Source: Deltaproteobacteria bacterium
GTDB taxonomy: Bacteria; Myxococcota_A; UBA9160; UBA6930
Direction of reading: 5' to 3'
Assembly (NCBI GenBank): GCA_029261795.1
Contig: JAJDAP010000019.1
Location: forward strand, 1 to 64,000
Length of the DNA stretch: 64,000 bases
The notes beneath the pieces are model-generated. The model saw only the letters and a program-made list of their open reading frames with translations. It was not told the origin of the DNA and made no database searches. Shown one piece after another: positions 54,920 through 64,000 of the stretch (its first letter is position 1; each line of letters opens with the position of its first letter). Both the position numbers and the translations under genes were made by a program.

Positions 54920-56254
54920 CTAGGCGTCCGGCGCCCAATTGCCGTGGAAGCCGAACGGAACGCGCCCCGGAAGCTCGATCACTGCGGCGGGCTCTCCCTG
55001 GAAATCCTGTGCATTCAGGATCACCACGTCGGCCGCGTTGCGCTTCTTGTCGTGCACGTACGAGAGCAACCAACCGTCGTCCTCGTCGGCGCCCGCGTGG
55101 CGCGGCACGAAGACCGGCTCCTGGAATTGGCGATGCTCGCCTTCGTTGCGCTCGAGGGTCTCGCCGGTCTGGAGATCGTGCTTCAACAAGCCACCGAAGA
55201 GGAGGCCCTCTCCGACGTGGCCGCAGTAGCCGTAGCGATAGGGCTTGCCGATCAGTCGCTCGTCGATGCGCGGGAACTCCTGAGCGCGTTCGTCGAGCCG
55301 GCTCTCCTTCACGGGACCGCCCTCGGGATCGATCAACCAGCGGTCGAGCGTCGGGATGCCGTCGTTCGGCCCGGTCATGTCCGTCGCGAACATCTTCGGA
55401 TGGCGCACGACGTCGAGCACCACGCGACCGTCCGAGTCTTCGTAGGAGTTCAGCGGGTGGAACAGGAAGCAGGGATCGACCTCGTGCCAGCTGATATCGG
55501 CGGCCTCGCCGTCACGCGGCAGCAAGCCGACCCGCGTGCCGTAGTCGTCGAACCAGCGGTAGGGAAGCGGGTAGTCCTGCTCGAGCAGCGCCGCATCGAA
55601 CAGCACCGGCATGTCGAAGACGATGAAGTAGTTCTCGGTGAGCGAGCAGTCGTGGACCATGGTCTTGCCGGCCACCGGGATCTCGATGGTCTTGCGAACG
55701 CGCCCGTCGGTGCCGACGACGTTGTACTGCAGCTCGTCGAGCCCCACGTAGTAACCGACCACGTGGAGTTCCCCGGTATCGGGGTCGCGCTTCGGGTGCG
55801 CGGAAAACGGGCCCGGCAGGGTTCCGTCGAAATCGGAAAACGCCACGGTATCGAGTTCATCCGTGAGCTCGACCGGATTCCCGCCGGCTTCTACGATCGC
55901 GAAGGTCTTGCCTGCGTGCGAAATAACATTGGTGTTCGCGGCACCGCCGCCGATCTCGCTGAAGCGGGGGCCCGGCGTCGCCGGCCAGCCCTTCACTTCG
56001 CAAACCCGGTCGTCGCGTACGAAGCGGCTGCGATAGTGCTCGGCCTTGCCGTCGCGCAACCACAGGCCGTGGACCAGACCATTACCGACGAACCAATGAT
56101 GGTTCGGGCCCGGTTCGCTCACCGGGTTGGGGCCGATGCGCATCAGGCGGCCATTCAGCTCGGCCGGAATCTCTCCCTTGACCGGCAGGTCGTGGGCCGT
56201 CGTCTCGTCGGCCACGGGTGCGTAGTTGTCCTCGAGATAGGCGTTGTCGGTCAT
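54920..56254 (-). CDS. Carotenoid oxygenase (RPE65/CCD family)
   Basis: A 444-aa Fe(II) seven-bladed propeller that cleaves alkene bonds of carotenoids, stilbenes or lignin-derived compounds. Candidate iron-binding His residues: AHPKRDP near residue 153, MVHDCSLTENY near 199, FHPLNSYED near 266, and the C-terminal FHGNW near 438. Characteristic LNGRLMRIGPNP at residues 33-44. Its start overlaps the TetR stop as ATGA, so the regulator is co-transcribed and likely senses the substrate or product. Confidence 0.92.
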   Translation of the reverse strand: MTDNAYLEDNYAPVADETTAHDLPVKGEIPAELNGRLMRIGPNPVSEPGPNHHWFVGNGLVHGLWLRDGKAEHYRSRFVRDDRVCEVKGWPATPGPRFSEIGGGAANTNVISHAGKTFAIVEAGGNPVELTDELDTVAFSDFDGTLPGPFSAHPKRDPDTGELHVVGYYVGLDELQYNVVGTDGRVRKTIEIPVAGKTMVHDCSLTENYFIVFDMPVLFDAALLEQDYPLPYRWFDDYGTRVGLLPRDGEAADISWHEVDPCFLFHPLNSYEDSDGRVVLDVVRHPKMFATDMTGPNDGIPTLDRWLIDPEGGPVKESRLDERAQEFPRIDERLIGKPYRYGYCGHVGEGLLFGGLLKHDLQTGETLERNEGEHRQFQEPVFVPRHAGADEDDGWLLSYVHDKKRNAADVVILNAQDFQGEPAAVIELPGRVPFGFHGNWAPDA

Positions 56255-56865
56255 CGGTCGTCTCCTTCGAGCGCGTGAATGGGAATGAAGCCCGCCAGGG
56301 CGGTATCAAGGATGGTTTCGAGCGAAGCGCCGCTCACTGCACCGAGCGCACCTTGCGACCACAGGGTCGCGACGCCGTGAACCAGCGACCAGAGTGCGGC
56401 GGCCAATGCGCGCGTATCGCACTCGGGTTCGAGGCCGGCGTCCTGGGCCACGCGAACCTGATGGAGGAGTTTGTCGAAGGCAGCGTCCGCATGCTGAGCG
56501 AACCCCGGATGGGCCCGGTCGAGGAGCTCCGGGCGAAACATCAGGGCGAACAAGCCCGGATTGGCGACCGCCTGCTCGACGTAGGCATGGGCGGCGCCGG
56601 CCAGCCGCAGTAGTGGCGAAGAACTGCCCCCGGGTACCTGGGCCGCGGCCTTGTCCATCGATTCCGCCAGGAGCTGGAAGCCGCGGCCGGCGACCTCGGC
56701 ACGCAGCGCGGCGAGGCTCGGGAAATGGCGTAGGGGCGCCCCGTGGGAGACGCCGGCCCTCCGCGCGATCTCGCGCAGCGAAAGCCCCTCGATCCCAGAC
56801 TCGGCCAGAAGCCCGAGTGCCGTCTGGACGAGGTGCTCGGCGGGGTCGGAGAGGTCACTTGCCAT
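56251..56865 (-). CDS. TetR-family regulator of the carotenoid oxygenase
   Basis: A 204-aa regulator: HTH SLREIARRAGVSHGAPLRHFPSLAAL near residues 29-54, C-terminal TetR_C-like domain with FALMFRPELLD. Two 13-bp palindromes touch the region 1-36 bp upstream of the ATG, giving a strong case for autorepression of this gene and the downstream oxygenase. Confidence 0.9.
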   Translation of the reverse strand: MASDLSDPAEHLVQTALGLLAESGIEGLSLREIARRAGVSHGAPLRHFPSLAALRAEVAGRGFQLLAESMDKAAAQVPGGSSSPLLRLAGAAHAYVEQAVANPGLFALMFRPELLDRAHPGFAQHADAAFDKLLHQVRVAQDAGLEPECDTRALAAALWSLVHGVATLWSQGALGAVSGASLETILDTALAGFIPIHALEGDDR

Positions 56866-56929: not shown

Positions 56930-57655
56930 CTAGATCATGCCCCCGTTCACCGAAATCGCCTGGCCGGTGATGTAGGCGGCTCCCTCTGAGAACAGGAATG
57001 CCACGGTTGCGGCGACCTCGTCGGGCGTCCCGAAACGGCCCAGCGGCACCCGCTTCGCCAGCGCGGCGAGTTTCGGATCTGCACTCATCTCGGTCTCGAT
57101 CAGCCCGGGCACCACCGTGTTGACGGTGATCTTCCGCTTGGCGAGTTCCAGCGAGAGCGACTTCGCCGCGGCGATGAGCCCCGCCTTGGAGGCCGCGTAG
57201 TTGGTCTGGCCGCGGTTACCCGAGAGTGCCGAGACCGAGGAGATCACCACGATCCTGCCCCCCGCATGGGCCCGCACCATCGGCATCACCAGGGGGTGGA
57301 GGACGTTGTAGAAGCCGCCCAGGTTGGTTTCGAGAACGCTGTCCCAGGCGTCGCCGGTCATCGCCGGAAAGGCGGCATCCGAATGGATTCCGGCACTGGC
57401 GACCACGCCCCAGAAGGCGCCGCGCTCGGCGACGGTGGCTTCGAGTTGGCCGCGGGCCTGCTCGCGGTCCGCGACATCGAAGCCGAGCAGCGCGCCCTCT
57501 CCCCCGGCCGCTTCGATTGCCGTGAGCGCCTCCTGCGCCGCGGCCTGCCCCGAGCGGTAATGGAGCGTCAGGTGGAAGCCCGCTCGCGAAAGTTCGAGGG
57601 CCGTCGCGCGGCCGATCCCGCCGCTCGCACCGGTAACCAGGACCCGCCGCGTCAT
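56930..57655 (-). CDS. 3-oxoacyl-ACP reductase-like SDR
   Basis: A 241-aa short-chain dehydrogenase of FabG type: GASGGIGRA near residue 9, catalytic Ser in VISSVSAL, Tyr/Lys in NYAASKAG near 154. Reads as the ketoreductase of the aryl-polyene-like cluster (ApeQ role), reducing the beta-keto group of the growing ACP-bound polyene. Last gene of the minus operon; overlaps the GT gene as ATGA. Confidence 0.85.
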   Translation of the reverse strand: MTRRVLVTGASGGIGRATALELSRAGFHLTLHYRSGQAAAQEALTAIEAAGGEGALLGFDVADREQARGQLEATVAERGAFWGVVASAGIHSDAAFPAMTGDAWDSVLETNLGGFYNVLHPLVMPMVRAHAGGRIVVISSVSALSGNRGQTNYAASKAGLIAAAKSLSLELAKRKITVNTVVPGLIETEMSADPKLAALAKRVPLGRFGTPDEVAATVAFLFSEGAAYITGQAISVNGGMI

Positions 57656-58383
57656 CGGCGCTGCCGCCCGAACAACTTGGGAATGCGCAGCAGCATTCCG
57701 CCCACCAACCGAACGTGGACCTTGGCGATCAACCAGGTGTCATAGCCGGCGGCGAAATGGGAGATTCCGCCCTCGTGATAGCGGACGTCGGTGGGCACGT
57801 TGACGATCTCGAGGCCTTGCCAGTAGAGGCGCACCGCGATCTCGGGATCGAAATCCATGCGGTCGCCCATCGGTGTCTCCTCGATCAGCCGAATCGTGGC
57901 GTCGAGGGGAAAGCAGCGGAAGCCACAAAGCGGGTCCTCGATGGCGAACGAGAGTGTCTCAACCCAGACCCAGAACTGTGAGAGCATCCGACCATAGAGG
58001 CGAAGCCTGGGCGCCGAGTCGTCGAAGACCGGGCGACCCAACACCAGCGCCTCGGGGAACTTCTGCGCGGCCTCGAGCAAGCGCGGGATGTCCTTCGCTT
58101 CGTGCTGACCGTCCGCGTCCAGTTGGAGTGCATGGCTGTAGCCGCGCTCGTGGGCGGTGCGGTAGCCGGTGCGAAGGGCGGCACCACGACCGCCGTTCTC
58201 GCGACGGTGGATCACCTGCACCCAGTCGTAGGCCGCTTCGACGCGTTCCAACTCGGCGCGCGTCTCCGCGTGGCTTCCATCATTCACGATCAAGCACGGA
58301 AGCCCGGTGAAGGCGATCGATTCGAGCACCGCCTCGATGGTGCTGCCGTGGTCATAGTTGGGAATCAGCAGGCAGGGGTTCAA
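57652..58383 (-). CDS. Family 2 glycosyltransferase
   Basis: A 243-aa GT-A-fold transferase: CLLIPNYDHGSTIEAVLESI at the N-terminus, LIVNDGS near 36, and LQLDADGQHEAKDI near 92 with the DxD-like Asp pair. The TTG start at 58383 overlaps the ligase stop (TTGA). GT2 genes are regular members of aryl-polyene clusters, where they are thought to help attach the pigment to a lipid carrier. Confidence 0.85.
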   Translation of the reverse strand: MNPCLLIPNYDHGSTIEAVLESIAFTGLPCLIVNDGSHAETRAELERVEAAYDWVQVIHRRENGGRGAALRTGYRTAHERGYSHALQLDADGQHEAKDIPRLLEAAQKFPEALVLGRPVFDDSAPRLRLYGRMLSQFWVWVETLSFAIEDPLCGFRCFPLDATIRLIEETPMGDRMDFDPEIAVRLYWQGLEIVNVPTDVRYHEGGISHFAAGYDTWLIAKVHVRLVGGMLLRIPKLFGRQRR

Positions 58384-59843
58384 ACCGGCTCCCCGGCGCT
58401 GGGCGGCCCCTCGAATAGCGTTCTCAGCAGCGGCACCGTCACCTTGCCCTGAGCGTCCTCGGGCAGCGCAGCGACGAATCGCCACGCCCGAGGAAGCAGG
58501 GTCCGTTCCCATTCGCTCGCGAGCGCATTGGATAGCGCCACGCCGACGTCGCGCCGACCTCCGTTCGCAAGCGCCTCCTCACCCGGCCGGGTCAACACCA
58601 CGACGGCGGCGACGCGACGCTCGCCCCCCAGCTCCAGCGGCAACAGGGCCGTGGCTTCGACCCATTCGTGCTCGAGCAGGCGCTCCTCCATCTCGGGAAG
58701 CGAGAGCCGCTTCTCGCCGATCTTCAGCACGCGATCGACACGGCCTAGCATCCGAAAACGCCCATCCGCCTGGAGTTCGACCCGGTCTCCCATCGCGAAC
58801 CCTTCGCCGGCCTCGTCCTGACTGACGAAGCGCGAATGCACCCGGAGCCGACCCTCTGGCTCATCCCGGGCGATTCGTACGGCGCGAAGCGGCGTCCACA
58901 GGGGCGAACTGTCCCGAGCGCTGCCCTGACGGCGCCAGGCCACGCCGCCGGTTTCCGTGGAGCCGAACAATTCGAGCGGCGCCCGCCCGCCGGCCTTCTC
59001 CCAGCGTCGGGCGGTTTCGGGGTCGAGGGGGCCCCCGGAGGAGAACACCACGCGGCACTGGCCCGCAATCCGTTCCAAACCATCGCGCTCCGCCAACCGC
59101 TTCAAATGCGCGGGGACACTGGCGAACGCACAGGGACCCTGGGCGGCCAAGCGAGCCGTCAGTTCCTCGGCGTGCAGTCGGATCCGAGCATCGAAGACGC
59201 GGCCCACGGCGAGTGGCCAGAGCAGCCGGAACAACATTCCGTAGAGGTGCTGATGCGAGGCGGAACCGAACACGGGCGCGTCCCCGACCTCGGCACCGAG
59301 CTCAGCGTCCAGCACCTGGACTTCATTCCCGAGATGGAACAACTGTTTGGGGACCGCCTTGCCCCGGCCCGTCGTTCCCGAGGTGAACAACTCCAACGCG
59401 GGCGCTTCGCGCGACAGCACACCGAAGAGGCCGAGCGGCACACTGCCGGCGGTAGGCTCGTGCTCGGTCGAGAGAACCGGGCGACCGGGCACTGCTACGC
59501 CCACGTCACTCACGGTGGCGATGACCAGATCTTGAAGGGCCGCCAATGCACCGGGCTGGGTATTCGGCGGACAGACGGCCACGCGCCCGGCGTGCCAGAG
59601 TGCAAACAGCCCGACCCCGAACGCGAAGGCATCCTGGGTTGCGAGCGCCACTGGGCCCGGCGGAAGCGCCGACACCTCGTCTCGAAGGCGTGCGACCGCG
59701 CCGCGGAACTCGCCCCAGTGGACAGGGCGATCGCCGCCCCGCACGTCGCTCCGCCAGGCAACCAGCGCATCGGCGTCGCGCGGCCGATCGAGCAGCCCAG
59801 CGAGATCGATGCCGCTGTCGCCCGGCCGGGCCGGATCAGCCAT
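58380..59843 (-). CDS. AMP-dependent ligase of the polyene cluster
   Basis: A 487-aa adenylating enzyme: ELFTSGTTGRGKAVPKQ near residue 151, ELFGSTETGG near 290, GDRVELQADGRFRMLGRVDRVLKIGEKRLS near 350-380. Similar to the acyl/aryl-ACP ligase that activates the aromatic starter unit (ApeH role; 4-hydroxybenzoate-like starter in related pathways). Starts 8 nt inside the acyltransferase gene. Confidence 0.85.
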   Translation of the reverse strand: MADPARPGDSGIDLAGLLDRPRDADALVAWRSDVRGGDRPVHWGEFRGAVARLRDEVSALPPGPVALATQDAFAFGVGLFALWHAGRVAVCPPNTQPGALAALQDLVIATVSDVGVAVPGRPVLSTEHEPTAGSVPLGLFGVLSREAPALELFTSGTTGRGKAVPKQLFHLGNEVQVLDAELGAEVGDAPVFGSASHQHLYGMLFRLLWPLAVGRVFDARIRLHAEELTARLAAQGPCAFASVPAHLKRLAERDGLERIAGQCRVVFSSGGPLDPETARRWEKAGGRAPLELFGSTETGGVAWRRQGSARDSSPLWTPLRAVRIARDEPEGRLRVHSRFVSQDEAGEGFAMGDRVELQADGRFRMLGRVDRVLKIGEKRLSLPEMEERLLEHEWVEATALLPLELGGERRVAAVVVLTRPGEEALANGGRRDVGVALSNALASEWERTLLPRAWRFVAALPEDAQGKVTVPLLRTLFEGPPSAGEPV

Positions 59844-60630
59844 CGAGACCGAGCGCCTTCTCGAAAGTCTCGTGCAGCTCCGCGGTCAAGCGCCGCGCCG
59901 CCCGCGAACGCGGCTCTCCGGCCGCCATCGACTCGACGTACGGGGCCATCGGAATGGTCGCGCCAACGCGAAGCGCGTACTCGAAGGCGCGGTCCGGTAC
60001 GTCCCACCAGGCCTGGTCCTTCATCAGGGTCGGTGGATCGCAGCTGGCGACGACCGGGATGATGTCTGTACCGGACTCGAGCGCCACCCGGGCAGCACCG
60101 CGATGGAACTCGCCGAGCCCGCCCTTCGGCGAACGCGTTCCTTCGGGGAACAACACGACCGAGTGGCCGAGTCGAAGTTGCTCGGCGCACTCCTTCACCA
60201 TGGTGCGCGCGCTCTGGTTCGAGATGTAGCCGGCGCCGCGAACCGTGCCGCCCATGAAGAAATTCGTCTGGTTCGAATGTTTGGTGACGACGACGGCATG
60301 GGGCATCTGCGACAGGACGACGACGGCATCGAGCAGGGTCGGGTGATTGGCCATCACCAGGACCCCGGGCTCGCGCAGCTTGTCGATGTTGCCAGGGGCC
60401 AGGCGCATCACGCCGAGGCCGCGAATCAAGAGCACGAAGTGGGCGAAGGCCCGGTTGACCGTCGCCTGGACCCGGAGCTGACGCTCGGCGGGATCCCGGC
60501 GAACCAGACGGAGCCAGGGAACCGTGATGGCGAAGATGCCGAGGGAGTAGAGCCCGAATGCGGCGAATCCGAATCCGGTGCGGGCTATGCGCCATGCCCG
60601 CGCGATCATTCGCGCTCCCTGCTCCATCAC
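59836..60630 (-). CDS. Lysophospholipid-type acyltransferase
   Basis: A 264-aa membrane-associated PlsC-like acyltransferase: one N-terminal helix (GFAAFGLYSLGIFAITVPWL), NHPTLLDA (HX4D) near residue 95 and FPEGTRS near 158. In aryl-polyene clusters such enzymes are thought to transfer the polyene to an outer-membrane lipid. GTG 60630 (followed by ATG) is preferred for GAGGGG 5-6 nt upstream; a longer frame starts at GTG 60681. Confidence 0.82.
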   Translation of the reverse strand: MMEQGARMIARAWRIARTGFGFAAFGLYSLGIFAITVPWLRLVRRDPAERQLRVQATVNRAFAHFVLLIRGLGVMRLAPGNIDKLREPGVLVMANHPTLLDAVVVLSQMPHAVVVTKHSNQTNFFMGGTVRGAGYISNQSARTMVKECAEQLRLGHSVVLFPEGTRSPKGGLGEFHRGAARVALESGTDIIPVVASCDPPTLMKDQAWWDVPDRAFEYALRVGATIPMAPYVESMAAGEPRSRAARRLTAELHETFEKALGLDG

Positions 60631-60714
60631 GCTCGCCCCTCGGATCCTCGCCACCGACGGTAGTGGAAGGGCCCTGCCCACGCATCCAGGCTCGAGAACG
60701 GCCAGCGCCCCATG

Positions 60715-62277
60715 CTAGAGGAACCCGCGGCGGCCCATGAAACGCATCAGGGCGAGCGGTTCGCGCGGTTCCGCGCCCAGGGACATGAGCGTGTCGGAAC
60801 GGAATCGGTTGAACAGATCAGCCATTCTCTCGAGCGTTTCGGCTTCCTGGGTCGCCTGACCGACGTCGGTCAGGAAGCCCAGACACTCGCGTCCGTCGGA
60901 GTACTCGCCCAGGTTCCGGCGATGATAGGCGCCGGTCTCCTGGAGGTGGGCGCGCACCTTCTGCAGTGCCGTGCGGACGTGAGCGAGCGAACGCAAGACC
61001 AGGGGCCGCTGGGCAATCTGCGATTCGAGCCAGGCGCGATCGAGATGCTGATCGCGCATGTAGGCATCGACCCAGATGTTGTAGTAGCTGCCGATATCGA
61101 AATTCCACTTCAGCTTGCCGAGCTCGTAGCTGCCGAGCAGATCGTACTGGCCGCGGTACAACTCGAAGGTCGCCTCCTGGCGGAAATCCATGAACGCGTT
61201 GTAGAGCTGCGCGCGTTCCGCGACGGCCTCGAACGATTCACCCTCGGTGTCGCGGCGGATCAGGTCGGCCAGGAAATCGTTCTCCAGCGCGATGAAGTCG
61301 GCACCCGGGCTGTAGAGCGGATCGGGGAAGCAAGCCGCCTCGCCGCTGAGCCCCCAACGATTGGCAGCGAAGAACTGGCTGGTTCGGTAGGACAGGTTCG
61401 TGTAGCAACCGTGATCGATGGGCTTCGCTTGCTCGATCAGGGATGACACCGCGTGGTGTTGGTTCAGGAAGGCGACGAAACCCTCCTGCGTTCGGAGCTC
61501 GGGCGAGAAGAGCGCTTTGTCCGCCACCAGCCCGATGCTCGTCACGCCATCCCGGAGCGGGATGAACCAGATCCAATAGCCGGGGTAGTGGAAGTGCATC
61601 GTCGAGAGTCGTCGCGGCGTGTGCCGGATGCGCGCGCGAAAAGCCTCGGAGCCCATCGTGTCGACGTCGGCCACACCCTCGAAGCGACCCCAGACGGAGG
61701 CGTTCGCCAGTTCGGTCTCGGCTTCCGCGAGGCCTTGGCTCCGGGCCAGGGTTCGCACGCGGCCACTCGCATCGATCAGCCAGCGCGCGCGGAGCCTCCG
61801 CTCTGGTCCGCCGCCCTCGGGTCGCACCGAGAATTCGTGGGCCTCGCCCGCTTCACCCAACTGGATCTCGCGCACCTGCACGCCACGGTGGATCTCCACA
61901 CCGTCCGCCGCATTCATGGCCGCCAGGTCGGAATCGAGGCGAGCACGGTCGATCTGGAATGCCGGGTGGAACGGCAGCGACTCGGAACCGATCTCGCTCA
62001 TCTGCTCGAGCGGCGCGCTCCGCTCGGCGTCGTCGTAGAAATATCGAAGGCCGTTCTTGGGGTAGTGCCGATCGTAGAGATAGGACGAGAGGCCCAGCCG
62101 CCGGACGAAGTAGTTCGTGGCGATCTCGACCATCGACTCGCCCAGTTTGTGGGGGTCGGAGGTCGTCCGTTCGAAGATCGCGATGCGAAGCTCGGGCACG
62201 CTGCGCCGGAGCTGGCGAGCGAGCAGCTGCCCGGCCATCCCACCGCCGATGATCGCTACGCCCAGTGTCGAACTCAC
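60715..62277 (-). CDS. FAD-dependent halogenase-like oxidoreductase
   Basis: A 520-aa flavoprotein with the FAD fold GGGMAGQLLA at residue 11, HKLGESMVE near 43 and the flavin-halogenase signature WxWxIP as WIWFIP near 234. ASGRVRTLARSQ is the second FAD motif. The GTG at 62277 (SSTLGVAIIGGG) has GGAGG 6 nt upstream. Xanthomonadins, brominated aryl polyenes, have a halogenase-like gene in their cluster, so this is the obvious candidate for halogenating the aromatic head; substrate and activity are unproven. First gene of the minus operon. Confidence 0.78.
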   Translation of the reverse strand: MSSTLGVAIIGGGMAGQLLARQLRRSVPELRIAIFERTTSDPHKLGESMVEIATNYFVRRLGLSSYLYDRHYPKNGLRYFYDDAERSAPLEQMSEIGSESLPFHPAFQIDRARLDSDLAAMNAADGVEIHRGVQVREIQLGEAGEAHEFSVRPEGGGPERRLRARWLIDASGRVRTLARSQGLAEAETELANASVWGRFEGVADVDTMGSEAFRARIRHTPRRLSTMHFHYPGYWIWFIPLRDGVTSIGLVADKALFSPELRTQEGFVAFLNQHHAVSSLIEQAKPIDHGCYTNLSYRTSQFFAANRWGLSGEAACFPDPLYSPGADFIALENDFLADLIRRDTEGESFEAVAERAQLYNAFMDFRQEATFELYRGQYDLLGSYELGKLKWNFDIGSYYNIWVDAYMRDQHLDRAWLESQIAQRPLVLRSLAHVRTALQKVRAHLQETGAYHRRNLGEYSDGRECLGFLTDVGQATQEAETLERMADLFNRFRSDTLMSLGAEPREPLALMRFMGRRGFL

Positions 62278-62372
62278 CGATCGCCTCCACATCTCATCCG
62301 TGGGTGCCAGCGTAGCAAGTGGCCGATCGCCGATGCAGGCCACGCGAAGCATCCTGTAACCTTTGGGGGGCC

Positions 62373-63566
62373 ATGTCCAAGCCGTGCTCACTTGCTGCCC
62401 TGGGAATCATCAACGCCCTCGGCGCTGACCGCGACGTGATCTGGCGACGCACCCTCGCGGGCGACACCTCGAGCATGAAGCCTCACCCGGACCTGACTGC
62501 CGGTGGCGATTGGCTGGTCGGCGCCGTGGACGACATGCGGTTGCCGACGCTTCCCGACGGCCTCGAGCGGTATTCCTGTCGCAACAACCGCTTCACCATG
62601 GGCGCCTTCGAACAGATCGAGACGGAGGTGATGAACGCGGTCCGCGCGGTAGGCGCCGACCGCGTCGGCGTCGTGATGGGGACGAGCACCTCTGGCAGCA
62701 GGGAATGCGAAGCAGCCATTCTTCACGAGCATCACCACGGCAGCTTGCTCCCGGAGTTCCGCTACGAGCAGCTCGAACTCGGCGGCGCCGCCAGCTTTCT
62801 TGCCGAGCTCCTGGAGCTCGGCGGTCCAGCGCTCTCGATCTCCACTGCCTGTTCATCCGGCGCGCGCGCGCTCGTCTCGGCTCGCTCGCTCCTCGAGCTC
62901 GGCGTCTGCGACGTCGTGCTGGCGGGCGGCTCGGACTCCCTCTGCGGGCTCACGAGCCACGGCTTCGCCTCCCTCAAGGCGGTGGCGGCAGGACTGACGA
63001 ACCCGTTCTCGGCCAACCGCGACGGGCTCAACCTCGGCGAAGGCGCCGCCCTGTTCCTGGTCACCCGAGAGAACGCGGGAATCCAGTTGCTAGGCGTCGG
63101 TGAGAGTAGCGAGGCGCATCACATCTCTTCCCCGGACCCGGAGGGGACCGGTGCGGCCGCTTCGATGCGCGAGGCGATGGAAGACGCAGGTGCCGCCGCC
63201 GATGACGTCGGCTACCTGAATCTCCACGGGACCGGGACCCGGCTCAACGATTCCATGGAGAGCCTGGCGGTTTCTCGGGTGCTGGGCGGCGAAACGCCTT
63301 GCTCCTCCACGAAGCCGCTGATCGGCCATTGCCTGGGCGCCGCCGGCGCGATGGAACTCGGCTTCTGCTGGATGGCCCTGGATGCGTCGGCTGGCCAGCA
63401 GATCCCGATCCCGCCCCATCGTTACGATGGCGACGGCGACACTGAACTGGCGTCGATCCGATTGGCTGGTGTAGGCGAATCCACGGATCGCGCCATCCTG
63501 CTCACAAATTCGTTCGGCTTCGGCGGCAACAACTGCACGCTCGCGGTCGGGAGGGCGACTTCATGA
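62373..63566 (+). CDS. Beta-ketoacyl synthase
   Basis: A 397-aa KAS I/II-type condensing enzyme: Cys in TACSSGA near residue 165, His in HGTGT near 285 and GHCLGAAGA near 321, and the closing NSFGFGGNN. The catalytic triad is complete. ATG 62373 is preferred; a longer frame starts at 62319. It resembles the KS of aryl-polyene clusters (ApeO role), and overlaps the next KS-like gene (ATGA). Confidence 0.9.
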   Translation: MSKPCSLAALGIINALGADRDVIWRRTLAGDTSSMKPHPDLTAGGDWLVGAVDDMRLPTLPDGLERYSCRNNRFTMGAFEQIETEVMNAVRAVGADRVGVVMGTSTSGSRECEAAILHEHHHGSLLPEFRYEQLELGGAASFLAELLELGGPALSISTACSSGARALVSARSLLELGVCDVVLAGGSDSLCGLTSHGFASLKAVAAGLTNPFSANRDGLNLGEGAALFLVTRENAGIQLLGVGESSEAHHISSPDPEGTGAAASMREAMEDAGAAADDVGYLNLHGTGTRLNDSMESLAVSRVLGGETPCSSTKPLIGHCLGAAGAMELGFCWMALDASAGQQIPIPPHRYDGDGDTELASIRLAGVGESTDRAILLTNSFGFGGNNCTLAVGRATS

Positions 63567-64000
63567 TGGACGTCGTCGTGCGACGCTTCTCCGCATGGGG
63601 AACCAGCCAGGCCGACGCGGTGCTGGCCTCGCACGAAGACTGGTCCGCCTGGGCCAAGGCGCCGGCGCCGCTCGGGCATGAAGGCAAACCCCCGGTCGCC
63701 TTCCTGGCAGCGGCCGTCCGCCGCCGCTCCAGCCGGCTCACGCGACTGATGCTCGAAAGCGCCTTCGCCTGCACCGAGGAGGGCGAACGCGGCTCGGTCC
63801 GTACGGTCTTCTCGTCGCGACACGGCGCCATTCACGTCGCGATCAAGATCCTGGCGAGCCTCGCTCGCCAGGAGAGCGTCTCGCCGCTCCAGTTCAGCCA
63901 CTCGGTCCACAATGCCCAGGCGGGTCTGTTCTCGATTGCCGCCGGCAACCGGGAGGCCTCGAGTTCGATCGCCGCCGGAACCGACACGTTCGCCCACGGT
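63563..64000 (+). CDS. KS chain-length-factor-like protein, truncated by window
   Basis: The first 146 residues. RHGAIHVAIKILASLARQE and FSHSVHNAQAGLFSIAAGN are characteristic of the second, partly degenerate ketosynthase-like protein of aryl-polyene clusters (ApeC role), which pairs with the catalytic KS and sets chain length. The segment where the nucleophilic Cys would lie reads SSSIAAGTDTFAHG, without Cys. More cluster genes (ACP, dehydratases, thioesterase, exporter) should follow to the right. Confidence 0.82.
   Translation, partial: MMDVVVRRFSAWGTSQADAVLASHEDWSAWAKAPAPLGHEGKPPVAFLAAAVRRRSSRLTRLMLESAFACTEEGERGSVRTVFSSRHGAIHVAIKILASLARQESVSPLQFSHSVHNAQAGLFSIAAGNREASSSIAAGTDTFAHG

Follow-up and report, generated by a model that had tools for sequence, protein, structure and literature searches.

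A type II polyketide synthase aryl-polyene cluster with two halogenase-like flavoproteins in uncultured Myxococcota

Our analysis recovered a type II polyketide synthase (PKS) aryl-polyene cluster of uncultured Myxococcota, which begins near the end of the window (the whole 64,000-nucleotide stretch studied here, C19:1-64000) and extends well beyond it. Its assignment to aryl-polyene biosynthesis can be made with high confidence, and it represents a new variant of this well-known pigment family, distinguished by an added module and by two halogenase-like enzymes. On balance, the best explanation of the whole is that one of these enzymes, FDH1, most likely halogenates the aryl head of the polyene.

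Gene content and organization of the cluster

The cluster occupies positions 56930-64000 of the window and runs on along contig C19 (95,705 bases) to about 79.5 kb (Table 1), in a genome of 5.74 Mb in 139 contigs that is 91% complete. The G+C content is even over the cluster region (66-69%), and an Rfam scan of the window returned zero matches. Domain and family matches placed the ketoreductase (KR), GT2, ligase, acyltransferase, flavoprotein, ketosynthase (KS) and chain-length factor (CLF) genes exactly where the original prediction had located them, and the genes to the right confirm its expectation that the cluster continues past the window. The acyl carrier protein (ACP) and dehydratase genes whose absence would have counted against it are likewise present there, as two ACPs and an ApeI/ApeP-type dehydratase, and so is the thioesterase it had listed, of the 4HBT type.

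Table 1. Genes and motifs of the aryl-polyene cluster on contig C19
Feature	Position	Strand	Best match or basis
FabG-type 3-ketoacyl-ACP reductase (ApeQ-like KR)	56930..57655	-	NF004200 6e-103
GT2 glycosyltransferase-like, cf. GT part of ApeJ	57652..58383	-	PF00535 1.6e-15
AMP-forming aryl/acyl ligase LIG1 (ApeH-like)	58380..59843	-	PF00501 3e-19
Lysophospholipid/glycerol acyltransferase (ApeD-like)	59836..60681	-	PF01553 3.9e-17
FDH1, halogenase-like FAD enzyme	60715..62292	-	PF04820 Trp_halogenase 7e-15
FDH1 DPLYSPG (DPxxSxG motif)	61303..61323	-	
FDH1 WIWFIP (WxWxIP motif)	61558..61575	-	
FDH1 Lys codon of PKNGLR (putative catalytic-Lys counterpart)	62056..62058	-	KxGxxF motif
FDH1 GGGMAG (FAD-binding GxGxxG motif)	62230..62247	-	
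Beta-ketoacyl-ACP synthase (ApeO-like KS)	62373..63566	+	NF006618 3e-137
CLF-like partner (ApeC / Lysobacter ORF16 type)	63563-64315, cut by window end at 64000	+	PF13723
LpxL-type acyltransferase	64312-65352	-	
ACP1	from 65330	-	
Dehydratase, 275 aa, fused ApeI/ApeP type	65631-66458	-	PF22818 1.4e-7, PF22817 8e-4
ACP2	from 66465	-	
Aromatic ammonia lyase	about 66973-68514	+	PF00221 2e-153
4HBT thioesterase	68511-68945	+	
COG4648-like membrane protein	68932-69768	-	
Ligase LIG2	69636-71069	-	
COND, condensation-fold acyltransferase (predicted)	71066-72451	-	fold model, HxxxDG
FDH2, second halogenase-like flavoprotein	72498-~73739	-	PF04820
Small secreted protein	73823-74260	-	
FAD oxidoreductase	74304-75593	-	PF12831
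CrtI-family desaturase	75682-77217	+	
Methyltransferase	77225-77920	-	
Membrane-LpxL fusion	77917-79521	-	
ABC transporter	right after membrane-LpxL fusion		

The KS displays the Cys-His-His active-site motifs (ACSSG, HGTGT and IGHCLGAAG), and the CLF frame overlaps its stop by 4 bases, making this a coupled KS-CLF pair; the CLF match to PF13723 improves from 1e-36 for the part in the window to 6.5e-57 for the full protein. On the other side of the KS, the longest open reading frame of FDH1 opens with a GTG at 62391; however, given the divergent KS start at 62373, the ATG at 62292 is probably the true start, which leaves an 80-base divergent intergenic stretch between the two genes. Similarly, the GT2 gene has its probable start at 58383, within a longer frame opening at 58512. 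LIG1 additionally matches the 4-coumarate--CoA ligase family TIGR02372 (7e-26, below its cut-off), and the ammonia lyase carries the GASGD motif. In the fused dehydratase the first half is ApeI-like and the second ApeP-like, the match of the latter falling below the Pfam cut-off, and in relatives the two halves are encoded by two separate genes.

Two further genes have unusual features of their own. The desaturase belongs to the CrtI family, although the cluster is of a non-carotenoid type, and it adjoins FDH2 in most relatives. The methyltransferase has an N-terminal signal-like stretch ending in the lipobox-like LLTACAPF, which is unusual for a SAM enzyme. To the left of the cluster, positions 54920-56865 encode an RPE65/carotenoid-cleavage-type dioxygenase overlapping a TetR gene; its best NCBIfam match is to the 8'-apo-carotenoid 13,14-cleaving dioxygenase, below the cut-off. 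This pair adjoins the cluster here, in the congener G001 and in G010. It was rejected as part of the cluster, given that good orthologs (64-78%) occur in genomes lacking FDH1 and that, outside the two congeners and G010, the pair lies away from the cluster.

Relationship to known aryl-polyene, xanthomonadin and flexirubin systems

Gene functions were assigned after the characterized aryl-polyene systems (PMC8253772, PMC3691225). With the clusters of E. coli CFT073 and Xenorhabdus (apeA-R; PMC8253772) the present one shares the KS and CLF, KR, ApeI/ApeP dehydratases, two ACPs, ligase, thioesterase, ApeD acyltransferase, the functions of ApeJ and a COG4648-like protein. These components, together with synteny in relatives, bear out the aryl-polyene identity that had been proposed. 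In contrast to those clusters, the glycosyltransferase and acyltransferase functions of ApeJ are here on separate genes, ApeI and ApeP are fused, and the export genes apeL and apeM are wanting, whereas the ammonia lyase, the two halogenase-like genes and a second ligase/condensation/desaturase module are additional.

The suggestion that the cluster is xanthomonadin-like holds only loosely. As in the xanthomonadin-type clusters of Xanthomonas, Lysobacter (ORF16-17) and Azoarcus (arc) (PMC3691225, PMC3949708), a KS-CLF pair with a nearby halogenase-like gene, here directly beside the KS, is combined with GT2 and KR genes. However, this is not a xanthomonadin cluster proper, because an aromatic ammonia lyase is found where XanB2, the chorismatase supplying the 3-HBA starter, had no match among the cluster proteins, and because FDH1 shares no more than 36-38% identity with the Lysobacter/Variovorax-type protein and falls outside its clade. 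The ammonia lyase, a FabG-type reductase and the aryl-polyene core are instead shared with the flexirubin clusters of Bacteroidetes. In this comparison too the cluster stands apart: the lyase scores 310 bits against a cut-off of 700 for flexirubin FlxA, and the KR matches the FlxB family (1.7e-74) below its cut-off. Literature searches for aryl polyenes in combination with an ammonia lyase, or with a tryptophan halogenase, returned nothing useful.

The added module includes COND, a protein with no Pfam match whose structural model (pLDDT 80) finds 8s6l as its best PDB match, followed by NRPS condensation and epimerization domains. Its condensation-domain fold together with the preserved HxxxDG motif suggests that COND most likely transfers acyl groups as an enzyme of the condensation type. 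This raises the tentative possibility, which can be reconciled with our main explanation, of a flexirubin- or arcuflavin-like hybrid product, in which COND would join the aryl polyene to a second unit, aromatic or lipid, that LIG2 activates and ACP1 carries. The fold and motif of COND are consistent with such a role, as is the class-wide grouping of ACP1, COND, the FAD oxidoreductase and LIG2; the low score of the lyase against FlxA speaks against it, as does the failure to recognize DarA/DarB-type dialkylresorcinol genes among the cluster genes scanned.

The halogenase-like flavoproteins FDH1 and FDH2

The window had been predicted to encode a WxWxIP flavoprotein resembling halogenases, and motifs and fold both agree with this; a second such protein, FDH2, is encoded outside the window. 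FDH1 possesses the FAD-binding GxGxxG motif, the WxWxIP and DPxxSxG motifs and the Lys of the KxGxxF motif, the residue whose loss would have counted against the prediction. This Lys is invariant in 21 aligned FDH1 orthologs, and the combination of Lys, WxWxIP and DPxxSxG is retained in nearly all of 80 FDH1 homologs, including the Lysobacter and Variovorax types, and is invariant in 11 FDH2 sequences. By its KxGxxF motif the FDH1 residue corresponds to K76 of CndH, the catalytic Lys of that enzyme. The printed HMMER alignment of FDH1 with CmlS sets the Lys one residue off, hence the probable equivalence to the halogenase catalytic Lys is founded on the motif rather than on measured coordinates.

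Among PDB sequences, the closest chains are CmlS for FDH1 (1.3e-22) and FasV for FDH2 (6e-39). The AlphaFold model of FDH1 (pLDDT 87.5) has as its best Foldseek matches CtcP, CmlS, PltM, PltA, CndH and Bmp2. FDH1 shares the fold, and both proteins the motifs, of the phenol/pyrrole-type flavin-dependent halogenases (CmlS, CndH, PltA, CtcP, Bmp2, FasV), although its identity to any solved halogenase is low, at about 20%. Of the 45 best PDB fold matches of the model, all are halogenases except 3nix, a flavoprotein with no stated halogenase function that is interspersed among them and scores as well as they do. No flavin reductase gene was recognized in the cluster.

Alternatively, FDH1 and FDH2 might belong to the halogenase superfamily yet act as flavin monooxygenases, either hydroxylases or epoxidases, in which case the pigment would be an oxygenated, non-halogenated aryl polyene. 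The score of 3nix points in this direction, and the NCBIfam scans also gave scores for the non-halogenating QhpG and LodB. A precedent is furnished by Azoarcus BH72: its cluster gene arcA is called a halogenase, but the aryl heptaene arcuflavin that it makes is not brominated (PMC3949708). Lysobacter enzymogenes, whose pigment is also non-brominated, lacks the gene (PMC3949708, PMC3691225). As the arcA case illustrates, sequence does not have the power to prove halogenation. Nevertheless, known hydroxylases, such as the p-nitrophenol and other monooxygenases, rank after the halogenases in the fold search, and the joint retention of the Lys, WxWxIP and DPxxSxG motifs also speaks for halogenases, making the monooxygenase alternative appreciable though somewhat doubtful. 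Judged from sequence features, halogenation of the pigment by FDH1 appears evenly poised.

Phyletic distribution and conserved gene neighborhoods

FDH1 matches with E-values up to 1e-30 were recovered in 38 of 148 genomes, of which 24 have matches below 1e-130. COND is present in 23 of these 24 and occurs elsewhere once, weakly; with FDH1 counted at E below 1e-130, the two are thus found together in 23 of the 148 genomes, FDH1 alone in one and COND alone in none (Fisher 5e-26, a value overstated by the relatedness of the genomes). The eight relatives examined share the same gene content and much of the gene order, including the placement of the KR beside FDH1; this retention in related genomes implies that the grouping of the cluster genes is not a matter of chance.

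In a tree of 79 rows, FDH1 of the window pairs with that of the congener, while the KS/CLF-linked proteins of Lysobacter (L. pythonis, L113), Variovorax (L112) and two more gammaproteobacterial proteins group in a separate clade with good support that excludes FDH1. Homologs are also found in Nitrospirales (with KS/CLF), Nannocystis and Planctomycetota, indicating that the family extends beyond clusters of this type; at least 496 stretches from several phyla encode a relative. Among the matches listed in a search of plasmids, relatives are at 33% identity or less. In Nannocystis exedens (L066:9556-14672) the homolog is flanked by two hotdog-dehydratase-like proteins together with a KS and an acyltransferase, which may represent a further aryl-polyene-like cluster. 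In three further loci (L036:8631-11551, L034:8492-11551 and L010:57-3054) FDH1 and FDH2 are divergently paired, and no PKS genes were recognized around them; the genomes concerned also contain cluster genes elsewhere.

Apparent absence of the aryl-polyene export genes

Contrary to the original prediction, LolA and MMPL genes do not follow in the cluster, and apparently the whole 91%-complete genome is without them: searches of cluster and genome recovered no ApeL or ApeM (aryl-polyene-type LolA and MMPL), both of which occur in most relatives. LolA and MMPL proteins encoded elsewhere in the genome were rejected as the missing exporters, being at most distantly similar to the aryl-polyene type. 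Among the relatives, both genes are present in G007, G010, G018, G037, G054, G066 and G072, MMPL also in G019 and G046, and LolA in G009 and G011. Neither gene is found in the genome of the window, in the congener G001 or in G005, G012 and G013, which belong to a second genus of the same family. Incompleteness of the assemblies could cover one such loss, though not easily five, and in the two congeners the cluster is intact on one contig.

These absences might be read as signs of a decaying, exporter-less remnant, with little or no surface pigment made in the genus. This is improbable: every biosynthetic gene has an open, conserved frame, with 51-84% identity between the two congeners, in both of which an ABC transporter follows the cluster. 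That this transporter has taken over export is a guess.

Proposed pathway and implications

Under the explanation that we prefer, namely an aryl-polyene cluster with FDH1 most likely acting on the aryl head, gene content, motifs, predicted folds and synteny allow the following chemistry to be inferred. The ammonia lyase would convert Phe or Tyr to cinnamate or coumarate, which a ligase would load on an ACP for extension with malonyl units by the KS-CLF, KR and ApeI/ApeP-type dehydratase to the polyene; thioesterase, GT2 and acyltransferases would then release the polyene and couple it to a lipid of the membrane. FDH1 would chlorinate or brominate the aryl head by means of reduced FAD, O2 and halide, via a hypohalous species held by the Lys, and the second conserved module (ACP1, LIG2, COND, FAD oxidoreductase, FDH2 and CrtI-type desaturase) might add or tailor a second unit. 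A more elaborate version, which we regard as speculative and rather unlikely in its entirety, is a class-wide two-module pathway of uncultured Myxococcota with an ammonia-lyase starter, in which FDH1 halogenates the head and FDH2 a carrier-bound second unit, the free-standing COND joins the two units, and the LolA/MMPL exporter has been dropped in some genera.

Should this hold, a membrane pigment that is halogenated and of new structure would be made by an entire uncultured class. The FDH1 family would then furnish a large set of candidate halogenase-like enzymes, many of them encoded beside polyene-type KS genes, and would offer a way to ask what maintains a halogenase-like gene in producers such as Azoarcus, in which no halogen is found.
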